Source of the DNA: Bacteriovoracaceae bacterium
GTDB lineage: Bacteria; Bdellovibrionota; Bacteriovoracia; Bacteriovoracales; Bacteriovoracaceae
Reading direction: 5' to 3'
Length of the DNA stretch: 64,000 bases
NCBI GenBank assembly: GCA_018649885.1
Contig: JABIHA010000020.1
Location: 1 to 64,000, forward strand
Below the pieces are notes generated by a model. That model did not search any database. It was not told the origin of the DNA and worked only from the letters and a program-made list of their open reading frames with translations. Both the position numbers and the translations under genes were made by a program. Positions 26,695 through 33,754 of this stretch are shown here, piece after piece. The stretch's first letter is position 1. Each line of letters opens with the position of its first letter.

Positions 26695-28284
26695 TTGGAT
26701 CAAATTAATATTCATCAAAAACGCTATGAGTTTGATGAAATTGCCAAAATCATTTTCAAAAACTCCGAAAACTTCCAAATTACCTTTGATTCACAAGTTT
26801 TGGACAATGTTAAAAAATCTCAGCTGGCACTTCTGGCCCATATTGAAAAACGAATTCCCATCTACGGTGTAACCACAGGTTTTGGGGATAGCTGTCACAG
26901 AGTCATAGAGCTTGGGCAAATTGAAAAACTTCAAAATAACCTTGTATCCTATCTTCTTTGCGGAACAGGTGATGTGTTAGATCAGAAGGTTTCAAAGGGA
27001 GTCTTATTTTTAAGATTAATTTCTCTTTCAAGAGGATTTTCAGGAGTCTCTCCAGAACTTCTTGAGAGGATGGCCACCTATTTTGAAAATGGATGGTATC
27101 CAGTAATCCCTAGGTCGGGCTCCCTGGGTGCTAGTGGAGACTTAATTCCACTTGCCTACTTGGCCAATAATTTAAGGGGAGAAGGCACAACTTTTGGAAA
27201 GGACGGAAAGCATGTCCCCATGGAGGCCCTGATAAAAGAAAGTCGTTTAGAAAAATACACTTTCAAAGCAAAAGAGGCACTGGCCTTAGTCAACGGGACA
27301 ACAACGATGGTGTCTCAATCTCTTCTCAACACGGTAAGGGCCTCGTATTTTACTGAGCTTGCATGCCTGTGCTCTGCCTGGTCTTGCTTGGCCTTGCAAG
27401 GCAGAAAAGAGGCCTTTGGCGATTTAGTAAACCAGCGTGCTAAAACTCACCCAGGACAAAGAAAAGCAGCTGGTATCATTCATCAACTCTTAGATGATGA
27501 AGATTACAAGAATATTGATCTGATAGATATTGATATAAAGAATTCCCAAACTGAACAGTTTGTCCAAGACCCCTACTCACTTAGATGCTCCCCTCAAATA
27601 CTGGGGCCTATTTTTGAAACAATCGACTTAGTTAAGAGTTGGATTGAAACTGAGTTAAATGGTGTATCCGATAATCCCCTCGTTGATTCTGAGGGTGAAT
27701 TAAAAATGGGTGGCAATTTTTATGGAGGTCATCTCAGTATGGGAATGGACTACTTAAAAATTAGTCTTGCCCACATAGCAGACCATATGGACCGGCAGTT
27801 AACTCTTCTTATTAGTGACAAAACTAGTCGTGGCCTTCCTCCAAACTTGGCCGCTTGGGATGATCACAACGAAAATGAAAGATTTCTACTCCACGGTCTG
27901 AAAGGCCTGCATCAAGGGGTAAATGCCATAACTTCTGAAGTCATGGCCAAATCAACCCCTGGTGGAATCTTTTCAAGATCTAGTGAATCTCATAATCAAG
28001 ATAAGGTAAGCCTTGGCATGAGTGCGGCCAATCAGTGTCACGATCTACTTGAGCAAGTAGAAGATATTTTTGCCCTTTATTTAATATGCCTGGCCCAAGG
28101 GCTTGACCTGAGGGGAATAAAATTAAAAGGTGAAAATTCAGTTAAATACTATCAAATGATCCGCTCAAACGTCGCTTTTGTAAAAGATGATATCCCATTA
28201 CACGACTCCATTGAAAAACTTAAAATTGCACTAAAAGAGGCCTCTACTGAGTGTGAGAGATCCCTTTTCGGTGGTAACTCATGA
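26695..28284 (+). CDS. MIO-type aromatic amino acid ammonia-lyase (HAL/TAL/PAL family)
   Basis: A 529-residue lyase with the MIO triad A146-S147-G148 in GSLGASGDLIPLA, catalytic YGVTTGFGD (Y57), and SDNPLVD and GGNFYGGH motifs. It should release ammonia from Tyr, Phe or His to give a cinnamate-type acid, the likely starter. At the selectivity site, where histidine lyases read Ser-His and Rhodobacter TAL reads His-Leu, I align Tyr86-Leu87 (LVSYLLCG), so the substrate is uncertain. TTG start with GGAG upstream; overlaps the ligase gene by ATGA. Confidence 0.88.
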   Translation: MDQINIHQKRYEFDEIAKIIFKNSENFQITFDSQVLDNVKKSQLALLAHIEKRIPIYGVTTGFGDSCHRVIELGQIEKLQNNLVSYLLCGTGDVLDQKVSKGVLFLRLISLSRGFSGVSPELLERMATYFENGWYPVIPRSGSLGASGDLIPLAYLANNLRGEGTTFGKDGKHVPMEALIKESRLEKYTFKAKEALALVNGTTTMVSQSLLNTVRASYFTELACLCSAWSCLALQGRKEAFGDLVNQRAKTHPGQRKAAGIIHQLLDDEDYKNIDLIDIDIKNSQTEQFVQDPYSLRCSPQILGPIFETIDLVKSWIETELNGVSDNPLVDSEGELKMGGNFYGGHLSMGMDYLKISLAHIADHMDRQLTLLISDKTSRGLPPNLAAWDDHNENERFLLHGLKGLHQGVNAITSEVMAKSTPGGIFSRSSESHNQDKVSLGMSAANQCHDLLEQVEDIFALYLICLAQGLDLRGIKLKGENSVKYYQMIRSNVAFVKDDIPLHDSIEKLKIALKEASTECERSLFGGNS

Positions 28285-29510
28285 AGATCAATCTTTTTCG
28301 AAAATCACATGGAAAAGATGTATTTAAGTATCTAGATCTAGCTATCAACGAAGGTGAATTAACAATTTTCTTCCCCCCCAGAGAAATTGATCTAGATGAA
28401 TTTATCAAATGGCTTCCAGAGGGCGAGCTTAATTATATTGGTGACTGGAAAGTGAAGGCAACGCTCACAACCAGAGAAAAAGTTGAGTATTCGCAGAGAC
28501 CTCAGCTTGGGGTATTTACGACAGGCACAACCAGCGAAAACAATAACCTGATTCTTTTCACTGAAAAAAACCTAACCAGTGCCATAGACTCTATCCTCTC
28601 CTTTTTTCACCAGCACAAAATTAACTACCTTTTTTCATTTCCTGGCCCCCAACATATTTTTGGCCTCAGTCTTGGATATATGCTCAGCAGGCATAGAAAT
28701 ATAGAAATGATAGATCTTAAAGGTCCATACAATAGTGGTCACCTAAGACAATGGTTTCGTGCCTGTGAGTCTTATGGTCCATCCCTTTTAACGCTGGGAA
28801 CTCCAACCCACTTTAACGATTTAATAACCTACGCACATAGTTTTGATATTTCACCCAGTCCGTCTCTCACATCAATTGCAGGAGGTGGAATTGTGGGAGT
28901 CAAGTTGTGGGATGAGATGCAAAATATCTTGGGAATTGAAAACCCAAGTATTGGTTATGGATGTTCAGAGGCCTCTCCCGCCATATCTCACTTGGCGCCA
29001 GGAGTAAGGCCTGTAAGTGATAGTGATCTAGGAGAAATTGTCCCCTCAGTCGAAATCCTTAAAAGCGATTCACAAGGCTTTGAATTTGCCGGCCCAAATC
29101 TCTGCCTCGCCATTTGTAGTAAATTGGGGATCACTTTTCCAAAGAGCTTGAAAATAAAAGATCGAATTAAAATTGAAGGATCTCATTTAACTTTTAATGG
29201 CCGGGCCTCTCTACTACTAAATAGAGGCGGAGAAAAATTCTCCCTCGAAGAAATCGAGCAATTTTTAAATAGCGAATTTAAAACCCAAGTGGTTTGTCTT
29301 TGTATTGATGACAAGAGACTTGGTAGTGAGCTAGGTATCCTGGTGAAGAAAAACCAGACACCCAAGATGAAAATTTTTGGGGCGCTGACCAAAAAATATG
29401 CAAAAAACTTTAATCCTGACTATTATAAAGAAGTGGATTTAATCCCTACCAATGCTAACCAAAAAATCGACCGCAAATCTTGCAGTGATCTTTACTACGG
29501 TGATGAATAA
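28281..29510 (+). CDS. AMP-dependent acyl-ACP ligase (ApeH-like)
   Basis: A 409-residue short ANL-type ligase. Visible motifs: TTGTTSENNNLI (the Thr/Ser-Gly phosphate loop, but without the usual Pro-Lys), YGCSEASPAI (A5), NRGGEKFSLEEIE (A8) and a terminal NANQKIDRK with the A10 Lys. Shorter than common 500-residue CoA ligases, as is typical for aryl polyene ligases. It probably loads the lyase product on one of the ACPs. ATGA overlap with the lyase gene supports this. Confidence 0.8.
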   Translation: MKINLFRKSHGKDVFKYLDLAINEGELTIFFPPREIDLDEFIKWLPEGELNYIGDWKVKATLTTREKVEYSQRPQLGVFTTGTTSENNNLILFTEKNLTSAIDSILSFFHQHKINYLFSFPGPQHIFGLSLGYMLSRHRNIEMIDLKGPYNSGHLRQWFRACESYGPSLLTLGTPTHFNDLITYAHSFDISPSPSLTSIAGGGIVGVKLWDEMQNILGIENPSIGYGCSEASPAISHLAPGVRPVSDSDLGEIVPSVEILKSDSQGFEFAGPNLCLAICSKLGITFPKSLKIKDRIKIEGSHLTFNGRASLLLNRGGEKFSLEEIEQFLNSEFKTQVVCLCIDDKRLGSELGILVKKNQTPKMKIFGALTKKYAKNFNPDYYKEVDLIPTNANQKIDRKSCSDLYYGDE

Positions 29511-29963
29511 ATGAATATGTCTGATAGTGTTATCCATGTTGACCAATTAAAGAGCTACCTTCCTCACAGGGCCCCTATGATATGGGTCGATGAAGTCATC
29601 AGTGTGGGCGATGACTCGGGAATTATAGCAGTAGAGCTGAAAGAGGATGCCCACTACTTTGATACAGTTAATCTTAGAAACACAAGCTTCATCGAATGGA
29701 TGGCACAAGGATGGGGCTACCTAGTAGGAGCAAAACTATTAAACTCTGGAAAGTTAGTTCAACCAAAAAGAGCATTTCTGGCGGGAGTCAACAATTTTGA
29801 AGTCCACTACAATCCTCAATTAATTCCAGGTGATATGGTTTTTGTGCACTTAAAACTCAGAAAAGATCTTGGTCAAGTGATGATGGTCGATGGCAGGATT
29901 TTATTTGGTGAAGAACAGGCGTGCATATGTACAGCACGCCTTAAGTTATTTATTGAAAGCTAA
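29511..29963 (+). CDS. Hot-dog 3-hydroxyacyl-ACP dehydratase (ApeP-like)
   Basis: A 150-residue hot-dog protein starting directly after the ligase stop. LPHRAPMIWVDEV and SFIEWMAQGWGYLVGAK match the ApeP-type dehydratases of aryl polyene clusters. In Xenorhabdus ApeP works with ApeI; here the ApeI-like gene is at 24499. Last gene of the operon; it ends one base before a convergent lipoprotein gene. Confidence 0.82.
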   Translation: MNMSDSVIHVDQLKSYLPHRAPMIWVDEVISVGDDSGIIAVELKEDAHYFDTVNLRNTSFIEWMAQGWGYLVGAKLLNSGKLVQPKRAFLAGVNNFEVHYNPQLIPGDMVFVHLKLRKDLGQVMMVDGRILFGEEQACICTARLKLFIES

Positions 29964-30498: not shown

Positions 30499-31389
30499 TT
30501 AATTTGTGAATAATTCTTTTCTTTCTATAAGTTGATCAACAGTATCCCACTGCTCACCAGAGATAATAAAAGTTCTTGTGGTCTTTCCTCCGAGAGAAGC
30601 ATTTACAACCTCAGTTACACTACGAATATCTGCTGTATACTCTGCTTGAATTTTGTCGATTGTGCCCTGGTCGCTCACTTTAGTAACATCAAGATCAGCA
30701 CCAAAAGACTGATAATCTATGCCGTATGATGTGTGATCAACTTCGAGTTTTAAATCAACTCCCGCATAACTTACATAAACCACATTACGGACATTATGAT
30801 TATTCGCTCTCAGTCCAATTGAACTACCAAGACTTGTACTATTTGTCGGTACTTCTGCTTTATTAGCTTTTGTTTCTTTGCCTGGTATATAGAATTTTCT
30901 CTCACCTGCTATTTTGTTCAAAAAGGCGATGGGGTGAATTCCTTCAAAATTTTCTTCAATTGTTTTACAGTCACTTTCTGTCATACTGAGAATTTTAGAA
31001 GGCTCATCTACAAAAGACTGGGCCACTTCAGTAGATGCAAAAAGACATTCATATTCATTTTTATCTACTAAAAGTGCTTCGTCAGCTATGACTTTTTCAA
31101 GTTGATAAATATCTTCTGTATAATAAGCTCTATCTTTTATTGTAAGCTCGGCTGGCTTACCTTTTACAAATCTAATGCGAAGATTAGTTCCGTTGTGCTT
31201 TAATAGAAAATTCTCAGTATCAAAATAATAATTTGTCTGTTCTTTGAGCTTAATTTTATTTCCCTTTTCCACAAATTTAGAAATCAAGGAGCTGTGTGCC
31301 TGCTCAGTTAAAAGGGTCTTAAATTCTGCTTCGTCCAAGGCCAGTCCAGAAAAAAGTGTGCAAGCAAGTACAACGGTAAACTTGTTCAT
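30499..31389 (-). CDS. Exported CYTH-like protein
   Basis: A 296-residue protein with a signal-like N-terminus (FTVVLACTLFSGLALD). Residues 45-110 read as a CYTH core: NYYFDTENFLLKHNGTNLRI, then R, then AELTIKDR. The N-terminal ExExK of catalytic CYTH phosphatases is not seen. CYTH proteins (adenylate cyclase/thiamine triphosphatase/VTC) are normally cytosolic polyphosphate-binding tunnels, so an exported one is unusual. GGAGATCACCG precedes the ATG. A similar protein lies at 32948. Confidence 0.65.
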   Translation of the reverse strand: MNKFTVVLACTLFSGLALDEAEFKTLLTEQAHSSLISKFVEKGNKIKLKEQTNYYFDTENFLLKHNGTNLRIRFVKGKPAELTIKDRAYYTEDIYQLEKVIADEALLVDKNEYECLFASTEVAQSFVDEPSKILSMTESDCKTIEENFEGIHPIAFLNKIAGERKFYIPGKETKANKAEVPTNSTSLGSSIGLRANNHNVRNVVYVSYAGVDLKLEVDHTSYGIDYQSFGADLDVTKVSDQGTIDKIQAEYTADIRSVTEVVNASLGGKTTRTFIISGEQWDTVDQLIERKELFTN

Positions 31390-31731
31390 CGGTGATCTCC
31401 TTTGACCAACACTGCGTACGCCGAAAACTCGGCAAAAAGAAAATAGTGGGGATAACTTAATACACGTACGCTCCGCATCATATGTCTAGCTACTTATTTA
31501 CACCCTCACTAATAAGTGAAAGTTAAATACGTGAATGTTTCTATGATTTTGAATAGTTACAGTGACATTCTATTCTTCAACGCCCACTTCCGCACTACAG
31601 GGTAGCTCCGCATGGATTGCCTAATAAATAGACACTTCCTAAATTTTTTACTCCATCTCACAAGCAGAGCGCAGGTTGGGTTACTATGGCTGCAAAGAAA
31701 TAAGATTTGAAAATCTACACAGGATAAACTT
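31390..31731. other. Intergenic region, no gene seen
   Basis: A 342-base divergent gap between the CYTH-like gene and the exported protein at 31732. I see no coding frame with protein character and no terminator. The nonamer GCTCCGCAT occurs twice (near 31470 and 31605), probably by chance. Both promoters should lie here, but none stands out. Confidence 0.5.
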
Positions 31732-32187
31732 ATGAAATTAATAGCACTTACCGCACTTATTTTCACATGCCTGCCAAATTTCTCTAGTGCTGAGATCGAT
31801 CTGTCATGCCTAGAGCGTGTGATGCTAAAGCGAGTTGCCAGCAAGGCGATGATGCCCGTTAGAATCATGACCCTAGGAATAGTTGGAAGAATTAATGTCT
31901 CTACCTATCGAGGAACTTTGAGAGCTCAAAGAGTTCTAGAGAGCTCCACAAGCCTAGTCGAGGGAAGTGCCTATGGTGAAAAGAGTCCCGATTACAAAAG
32001 AGTCAAACGTTTTACAAAAAAGGTCGCAAGAAAAATAGACATGGAAATTGAACCTCTTGATATGGCCCAAATTGTCTATGACATGGACCAAAATAAGGAA
32101 TTGTGTCCTCGAATATCAGACTTATACAGACGTCACTTTGATTACCGTGAACTAAGAGATTATACGGCCTCTAAACTCAGCCAGTAA
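31732..32187 (+). CDS. Exported protein of unknown function
   Basis: A 151-residue protein with a signal peptide (LIALTALIFTCLPNFSSA) and a basic, helical mature part with two Cys. No family recognised. AGGA precedes the ATG. It is 32 bases upstream of the aspzincin gene on the same strand, so the two may be co-transcribed. Confidence 0.75.
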   Translation: MKLIALTALIFTCLPNFSSAEIDLSCLERVMLKRVASKAMMPVRIMTLGIVGRINVSTYRGTLRAQRVLESSTSLVEGSAYGEKSPDYKRVKRFTKKVARKIDMEIEPLDMAQIVYDMDQNKELCPRISDLYRRHFDYRELRDYTASKLSQ

Positions 32188-32219
32188 AAATAAGTAAATC
32201 CCCTAAAGCGGAATGGACC

Positions 32220-32912
32220 ATGAAATTAATATTGATCACCCTATGCCTTGGAATATTCACCCAATCGTCTCACGCAAAGCTTGGGAAAAAAGTGAGTATT
32301 CGCGACTATATAGAGGCTGGGAAAACTAAACTTTTAGGGCCAAAGTCAAGACTCATTGAAAGCCTATTTTACAACAAAAAATATGCGTGTACTGAGAGAG
32401 TTGATCATGTCAACGGCATGAGACTTCTGGCAATGGATCAAGTGGAAGAAGCTCTCAGAGAAATATCTGTATATGAGAAGAAACCAAAGGTTAAAAAATC
32501 AAGAAGTCTTCGAAGAAGACTTCGAAGGATTGCAAGGCGCTACAGGTGTATTTTAAGAAAGCTGCCAGTGGCATTAATTCACTGTCAAACAAAGAGATGT
32601 CAGAGAAAGAAAATTTCTGCTAGCTCCAAGACACCCACTTTCCCACATATTAGCCTGTGCAACAGACTATTTAAAAAAGGTGACTATAAACAAGCTGCAA
32701 TCTTAGTCCATGAACTCTCTCATACATGTGGAACCCTTGACTTTGAATATGATGATAAACCTAGGAAGCATTATGGCATTTTTGGTGTAATCGCCAATGC
32801 GGAAAGTTTTGAATATTGGATTAAAAAAGGCTTTTGCCTTCCGGGTCTAGATTGTCCCGATCCTAAAGAAGAATACCAAATCAAAGAATTATGGGACAAC
32901 CTACTTCACTAA
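32220..32912 (+). CDS. Exported aspzincin-type metallopeptidase (M35, PF14521-like)
   Basis: A 230-residue protein with a signal peptide (LILITLCLGIFTQSSHA). It carries HELSH at 164-168 and GTLD at 171-174, the aspzincin layout with Asp as third zinc ligand, then NAESFEYW, which matches the NADSYEYF of Lys-specific metallo-endopeptidases. A very basic central stretch (SRSLRRRLRRIARRYR) may be a propeptide or a binding region. Likely an exported protease. Confidence 0.78.
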   Translation: MKLILITLCLGIFTQSSHAKLGKKVSIRDYIEAGKTKLLGPKSRLIESLFYNKKYACTERVDHVNGMRLLAMDQVEEALREISVYEKKPKVKKSRSLRRRLRRIARRYRCILRKLPVALIHCQTKRCQRKKISASSKTPTFPHISLCNRLFKKGDYKQAAILVHELSHTCGTLDFEYDDKPRKHYGIFGVIANAESFEYWIKKGFCLPGLDCPDPKEEYQIKELWDNLLH

Positions 32913-32947
32913 TCTCACTAAATTCACTTGTAGGAGCACGAAGAAAA

Positions 32948-33754
32948 TTAATCTTTCCAGTAAGTCTCTGTTTTAGAAATAATCTTTTTTTGGAATAATT
33001 TTCTTTTGGATAGCTTCTTTTCTAAATCGCTATAAGCTTTAGTAAAATGATGGACATCACTTGTGTTCACTTTAAAAGATAAAGAACTGAGAGTCTTTTG
33101 TTTGAAAAACCAAACTTCGAAATCAAATTCAGTGTCCTCAAGTGCAGGGATCCCTCCCGCTCTGTATTTGAGAGAGTATTTTTTTCGAATTACTTTTTTG
33201 GGAATGCCTAGACTATCAGGGTCAGTATTTTTACTTAAGATTTGAAAAATAACAGGATAGTTTTTTCTAAGAAAATCGAGAAAGGCATTTTTTTTTACCT
33301 TTTCGATTTCTTTCATAAAATTCGATTTTACCACGTAGCTGACGGAATAAGATTTCCCACTACCTTTGCGGTCAATTTCAAACTTTACTTCATCAAAATT
33401 TTGGGCATCTAGCACCATTAAATCTGCTTCAAATGCTGATCTCACTTTAATGGTGAAAGTACTTTTCTTAGGCTGCGTTAAATTGGGTCTAATTCGAAAA
33501 ATGAGATTATTTTGTTTTAGCTCCCTATCTTCGGTGTCTATATAATAGACGGCATATTTTTTTTGCTCACCCTTAACTTTGAAACCTTTCAGTCTTTTTT
33601 CAACTTTTGCTATAATCTCTTTTGAACTATCACTTCTTTTTACACCTATATTTTTGAGGTCATAACTAAACTCTGTTGATGAAAACTTACTTTCACCTGC
33701 ATAGGCGCTAGAGAATATAAAACTAAGTAAAATAACTAGTGATTTTGGGTCCAT
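32948..33754 (-). CDS. Exported CYTH-like protein
   Basis: From ATG 33754, 268 residues with a signal peptide (SLVILLSFIFSSAYA). The core YYIDTEDRELKQNNLIFRIR followed by STFTIKVR matches a CYTH beta-barrel start, like the protein at 30499. An upstream in-frame TTG (33790) would place 12 residues before the signal and is unlikely. No catalytic ExExK seen. Role unknown. Confidence 0.62.
   Translation of the reverse strand: MDPKSLVILLSFIFSSAYAGESKFSSTEFSYDLKNIGVKRSDSSKEIIAKVEKRLKGFKVKGEQKKYAVYYIDTEDRELKQNNLIFRIRPNLTQPKKSTFTIKVRSAFEADLMVLDAQNFDEVKFEIDRKGSGKSYSVSYVVKSNFMKEIEKVKKNAFLDFLRKNYPVIFQILSKNTDPDSLGIPKKVIRKKYSLKYRAGGIPALEDTEFDFEVWFFKQKTLSSLSFKVNTSDVHHFTKAYSDLEKKLSKRKLFQKKIISKTETYWKD

Follow-up and report, generated by a model that had tools for sequence, protein, structure and literature searches.

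Two genes for exported relatives of CYTH proteins lie on either side of an exported aspzincin-like metallopeptidase gene in a 64,000-nucleotide stretch of a Bacteriovoracaceae genome (assembly GCA_018649885.1, contig JABIHA010000020.1, positions 1 to 64,000; hereafter the window). The arrangement raises two questions: what a CYTH protein might do outside the cytoplasm, and whether the three proteins work together. The first-pass annotation had placed two exported CYTH-related proteins around the peptidase, and both open reading frames are indeed present; the segment 30499-33754 holds four genes (P0001, P0004, P0003 and P0002), all for exported proteins. The answer that we favor, giving it roughly even weight, is that P0002 would be an exported CYTH protein with a rebuilt tunnel, binding a phosphate-rich anion without metal and without cleaving it, and that its neighbors do not form one system with it. 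Its gene is as follows.

32948-33754, minus strand: P0002, an exported CYTH-derived protein of 268 residues that lacks ExExK and belongs to a phylum-wide family (from profiles, tree and residues)

Descent and export of the P0002 family

Taken alone, P0002 scores below the Pfam CYTH cut-off (E = 0.0022, 18.3 bits versus 23.2), so its homology to CYTH proteins rests on profile comparisons. The CYTH strand pattern that had been read from the sequence is real in both proteins (YYFDT..LK.NGT.LRIR..LTIK in P0001 and YYIDT..LK.N..FRIR..FTIK in P0002). A profile search begun from eight sequences (alignment A1) and continued with 17 exported proteins without P0001 (A2) covered 368 genomes of this phylum at E ≤ 0.001. 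The A2 profile matched 48 of these, 36 of which were retained as carrying the exported family, and these 36 span nine taxonomic families. Among viral contigs, a search with alignment A4 gave 102 pattern matches, none of them a relative.

Three tests that do not depend on a structural model identify the family as CYTH. Against the PDB at E < 0.01, the A2 profile matched CYTH proteins only (3sy3, 2.6e-6; 2gfg, 7.6e-6; 8h92, 0.0053). Aligned by hhalign to nine cytosolic CYTH proteins of the phylum, it reached 97.0% over 204 columns (97.2% without P0002), with ten column shuffles and one reversal as controls at no more than 2.4%. PF01928 was matched by 11 of the 17 exported-family members at E ≤ 1, the best at 1.4e-5. 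By these profile measures, the P0002 family is CYTH-derived. A low-confidence AlphaFold model of P0002, built from an alignment that included P0001 and 13 CYTH proteins (A7), gave 18 Foldseek matches at E ≤ 0.001, all of them CYTH/TTM structures (TM-scores of 0.27-0.54); its best VIA-align match was YgiF (Z of 9.3 over 174 residues, 4.3 Å).

We scored export by the best nine-residue Kyte-Doolittle window near the N terminus, with start codons of our own choosing. All 23 rows classed as exported reached at least 1.81, and all 24 cytosolic-type CYTH rows stayed at or below 1.40. Among exported-family rows, 29 of 30 have a hydrophobic N-terminal window of at least 1.73; the exception, L146, scores 0.76 and its start is uncertain. 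The signal peptides noted in the first pass are borne out by a hydrophobic N-terminal stretch in both P0001 and P0002. Cysteines supply independent support, as they are gained and lost in pairs, which is expected of extracytoplasmic disulfides. Two alignment columns hold cysteine together in 26 of 29 rows and have lost it together in the other three (P0002, L149 and L151). A second pair of columns is occupied in 15 and 14 rows, in the same proteins except for one truncated row, and a third column, with cysteine in nine rows, has a partner cysteine in eight and replaces the second pair in those eight. P0002 and P0001 are both predicted to be exported.

Tunnel residues and a candidate role

To name tunnel positions we used the numbering of AtTTM3, assigned via the alignment and then checked by counting; residues were counted in 29 fully aligned sequences. 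Three short elements of P0002 carry the argument.

33488-33496, minus strand: R87-I-R89, equivalent to R52 and R54 of AtTTM3 (R87 equivalent in 29/29 rows, R89 equivalent in 26/29)
33446-33454, minus strand: T101-I-K103, with K103 equivalent to K76 of AtTTM3 (Lys in 28/29, Arg in 1/29)
33071-33079, minus strand: S226-F-K228, replacing the metal-binding Glu169-x-Glu171 of AtTTM3 (Ser in 28/28, Arg or Lys in 27/28)

The basic residues of the tunnel, RxR and TxK, are present in both P0001 and P0002. The metal-1 glutamate, Glu169, is serine in every scored exported-family row, including P0002, and the single row without a basic residue at the Glu171 position has serine there; in 20 ExExK-type rows from two other groups, both positions are glutamate in 20 of 20. 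The first glutamate of ExExK survives in 1 of 28 family rows, the second (the Glu4 equivalent) is Glu or Asp in 28 of 28, and the lysine of the motif is kept in 13 of 29. ExExK had been described as absent from both proteins at this locus; this is right for P0002 and wrong for P0001, which has EAEFK at residues 20-24. On a C-E-x-D strand, E126 of P0002, invariant in A2, may correspond to Glu90 of AtTTM3, a position at which the alignments are ambiguous. Because the same serine and basic residue recur across nine families, an outcome that random decay would not yield, the pattern looks like conserved rebuilding rather than decay. It is very likely, then, that the P0002 family consists of exported, rebuilt CYTH proteins.

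Comparison with known tunnel proteins brings out what was changed. By sequence, P0001 and the exported family alike have their closest solved relatives among the YjbK-type CYTH proteins of Bacillota (3sy3, GBAA_1210; 2gfg, BH2851), cluster 5 of PMC8233210. Their conserved blocks follow the same order, but, unlike the exported family, the YjbK-type rows found here lack a signal peptide and keep ExExK together with both C-terminal glutamates (11/11). The tripolyphosphatases AtTTM3 and YgiF share the basic tunnel residues R52, R54 and K76 with the exported family, which differs from them in having serine for Glu169, Arg or Lys for Glu171, and no first ExExK glutamate. The tunnel domain of the polyphosphate polymerase Vtc4p likewise carries a basic residue at the Glu171 position; passages of PMC4641920 describe how four basic residues at that patch of Vtc4p conduct the polyphosphate chain away. 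The exported family, however, is regularly basic at just one of the four acidic-patch positions, and Vtc4p keeps its metal-1 site, is cytoplasmic and is catalytic.

In our search of the open-access literature, with subscription papers and preprints outside its scope, no paper described a CYTH family that is exported, and nothing on CYTH proteins together with Bdellovibrio came up. In passages of PMC4641920 and PMC8233210, CYTH proteins are not described as exported, and those of PMC6416229 and PMC13318637 treat other subjects.

In the mechanism that we propose, the tunnel retains the triphosphate-holding arginines and lysine, while both metal sites have been dismantled, the metal-1 glutamate being replaced by serine and a metal-2 glutamate by Arg or Lys. 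A cationic side chain of P0002 would then stand in for the metal in holding a polyanion. Its ligand outside the cytoplasm might be polyphosphate, an inositol phosphate or a nucleotide, bound uncut, and the protein could serve in binding or handing over, alongside a phytase-like propeller protein in some lineages. Metal-free binding of a phosphate polyanion can be inferred with good reason from these substitutions: replacing the metal ligands of a well-studied tunnel by serine and Arg or Lys predicts that phosphate polymers are bound outside the cytoplasm without the help of a metal. From homology, export signals, residues, distribution and neighborhoods, all of which were computed, we infer the ligand, the lack of catalysis and the role of the family. 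The earlier suggestion of an exported anion binder without catalysis accordingly survives for P0002, where the family-wide residue pattern fits it; the absence of ExExK from both proteins is not supported, as P0001 has the motif. If correct, our proposal would add to this phylum, to which the predatory Bdellovibrionota belong, a protein that binds polyphosphate or inositol phosphates outside the cytoplasm, and would supply a likely partner for phytase-like genes.

The exported family might instead still be catalytic and act, for example on pyrophosphate, by another chemistry or by one that needs no metal. R52, kept in all 29 rows, is the proposed catalytic arginine of AtTTM3 in passages of PMC4641920. 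AtTTM1 and AtTTM2 (CYTH cluster 7) also have neither ExExK nor ExE, and excerpts of PMC8233210 report that pyrophosphate is their substrate; unlike the exported family, they are plant proteins that are not exported and have a kinase domain (the latter per the title of 7z67). The same passages of PMC4641920, however, describe Glu169, serine in our 28 of 28, as invariant among characterized TTM enzymes, and report that changing Glu2, Glu4 or Glu169 of AtTTM3 even to Asp strongly lowered activity. We consider continued catalysis unlikely. Nor do we give much credit to the idea that the barrel is a protein-interaction scaffold without a phosphate ligand. Chains of the Mediator Med18/Med20 type turn up when the low-confidence P0002 model is compared with known structures, and the TTM-like barrel of Med18/Med20 serves as a nuclear scaffold, but this likeness is structural and comes from the model. 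A scaffold would have no need to keep the tunnel arginine in 29 of 29 rows and the lysine in 28 of 29.

A possible partner for the proposed binding protein emerged from gene neighborhoods, which we compared in 33 stretches and the window with a Pfam scan of part of the neighboring proteins. One close neighbor recurs across taxonomic families, a phytase-like PF13449 gene. It stands beside the exported CYTH gene in four genomes (G307, G072, G259 and G042; match ends 60 to 236 bases apart) and, in a fifth (G335), lies two genes away at 1942 bases. The tightest link is in G307 (L108, 5940-7819), where the PF13449 and CYTH genes run in the same direction with a one-base overlap. Of the 368 genomes, 115 carry PF13449, among them 14 of the 36 that encode an exported CYTH; in 5 of these 14 the two genes are no more than 2 kb apart, versus 0.034 expected at random placement. 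As a tentative extension of our proposal, the fixed Arg or Lys that replaces the metal could make the exported tunnel a metal-free receptor for polyphosphate or inositol phosphate that hands its ligand to the phytase-like propeller; such a pair would perhaps scavenge phosphate from other cells.

Several points weigh against these proposals. The Poisson P of 3.5e-10 for the closeness of PF13449 to the exported CYTH gene is too small because PF13449 was chosen after looking at the neighbors. In the other 9 of the 14 genomes having both it is not within 2 kb; the window's own genome has two PF13449 genes, both on other contigs and not near an exported CYTH; and the phytase activity for which PF13449 is named is putative. 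Within the family, 12 of the 48 matched genomes were dropped by our own judgement (eight of the cytosolic ExExK type and four weak), and the residue counts do not include seven of the 36 sequences (one with a large insert, one split by a stop or frameshift and five not extracted). P0002 itself is aberrant in its own family: it has lost every paired cysteine and the otherwise common Glu167 equivalent. Its model is weak (mean predicted local distance difference test (pLDDT) score of 54.7), with CYTH proteins within its alignment. P0001 was folded with the N-terminal parts of 17 CYTH proteins (A8), because its C-terminal half was aligned wrongly whether the full length or two fragments were used, and this model (mean pLDDT of 49.1) gave no Foldseek match at E ≤ 0.001.

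Other neighbors of exported CYTH genes recur less widely. Two genomes from a single genus have a PF01663 phosphodiesterase/nucleotide pyrophosphatase gene adjacent or close to the exported CYTH gene (L109, 918-2600; L110, 4927-6435), which adds to the phosphate-related context. Within the genus g25, the exported CYTH gene closes a string of housekeeping genes that includes glpX and an alanine-racemase-like gene, an order that looks like plain synteny. Response-regulator relatives recur in three stretches, and we took these to be common genes.

P0001, a second exported CYTH protein

P0001 differs from P0002 in motif and in placement. Its features are these.

30499-31389, minus strand: P0001, an exported CYTH protein of 296 residues that keeps ExExK (from Pfam, phmmer and a paralogue)
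31126-31332, minus strand: the CYTH N-terminal half of P0001, residues 20-88 (Pfam)
31318-31332, minus strand: EAEFK, the ExExK of P0001, residues 20-24, at the start of the mature protein (translation and alignment)

P0001 matches Pfam CYTH (PF01928) at E = 3.6e-10 (40.4 bits versus a cut-off of 23.2) and the Bacillus anthracis CYTH structure 3sy3 in phmmer (E = 1.1e-4). EAEFK directly follows the signal-peptide-like stretch and aligns with the ExExK of 17 CYTH rows, mostly from Bacillota; AAAGGAG lies seven bases 5' of the ATG. The C-terminal half follows the CYTH family too (VRNVVYVSYAGVDLKLEVDHTSY). Eighteen relatives of P0001 were found on genome contigs, aligned mostly over the first half: 16 from Bacillota or unclassified Bacilli-type metagenome-assembled genomes (MAGs), one from a PVC (Planctomycetes-Verrucomicrobia-Chlamydiae) MAG and one from an Oscillospiraceae MAG. 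A search of 59 genomes gave matches in two, the window's own and one other (E = 3.5e-5, cytosolic type). The genome encodes a paralogue of P0001 on a different contig (32% identity, E = 1.1e-19); this protein has a signal stretch unlike that of P0001 and shares two cysteines with it (C115 and C141 of P0001).

That P0001 is an active exported triphosphatase is possible but doubtful. ExExK, RxR, TxK and the strand-5 glutamate are all in place. Asp, however, occupies both the Glu169 (metal-1) and the Glu171 positions, and in passages of PMC4641920 the Glu169-to-Asp change strongly lowered AtTTM3 activity; the paralogue, which keeps both C-terminal glutamates, has lysine for the first glutamate of ExExK. 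The two Asp residues, despite ExExK, lead us to suggest that P0001, as a second and separate exported CYTH, would be either a weak triphosphatase or likewise a binder.

A 41-row tree has the 16 exported rows that lack ExExK as one side of a branch supported at 97/91. The pair of P0001 and its paralogue (83/67) groups with cytosolic YjbK-type proteins (93/92). We reject an origin of P0001 and P0002 as two recent paralogues, given their position on different sides of supported branches. The end branches of the two proteins are long (1.99 and 2.3, respectively), so their exact places are unsure. Because exported rows fall into separate groups, export of CYTH proteins has arisen more than once here. 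Three further exported CYTH-like proteins, all on the minus strand, belong confidently to neither group: L047 (1408-2304), with an apparently intact ExExK (EIEAK) and EIELE; L034 (1330-2112), with a C-terminal membrane segment; and L045 (859-1743).

The peptidase and the layout of the locus

Between the two CYTH genes lie two more genes on the opposite strand.

31732-32187, plus strand: P0004, an exported protein of 151 residues without a Pfam match (translation and Pfam scan)
32220-32912, plus strand: P0003, an exported aspzincin-like metallopeptidase (Pfam and distribution)

P0003 scores just under the cut-off of Aspzincin_M35 (PF14521; E = 9e-7, 29.8 bits versus 30) and contains HELSH...GTLD, which we take to be the aspzincin motifs. 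P0004 lies upstream of it on the same strand with a 32-base gap and is perhaps a partner or inhibitor of the peptidase. One CYTH gene is divergent from P0004 and the other is convergent with P0003; the gene layout at the locus shows no common operon for P0001, P0002 and the peptidase. Of 129 genomes from the taxonomic family, 11 carry aspzincin relatives of P0003 and 19, by our classification, carry the exported CYTH family. The two occur together in two genomes, the window's and G250, versus about 1.6 expected, and in G250 they are about 557 kb apart. No BLAST relative of P0003 was found among the neighbors of exported CYTH genes in other genomes.

The first-pass annotation had taken the flanking position as a hint of one system and had looked to co-occurrence in other Bdellovibrionota to check it. 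Although all the proteins are exported and encoded within 3.3 kb, a single periplasmic system of both CYTH proteins and the peptidase is very improbable, and we reject it on distribution and neighborhood: the genes lie on opposite strands and share no operon, the distributions overlap at chance level, no P0003 relative stands beside other exported CYTH genes, and the two CYTH proteins come from different lineages. The two CYTH genes and the peptidase gene are probably adjacent by chance.

The window's genome (G000) has six aspzincin matches, with copies of the peptidase on contigs C132, C102, C3 and C149; those on C102 and C3 contain internal stops, which suggests that the expansion is in decay. 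Upstream of the locus, at 26695-29963, a separate row of genes encodes an aromatic amino acid lyase, an AMP-binding enzyme and an ApeP-like dehydratase, reminiscent of aryl polyene or flexirubin clusters.

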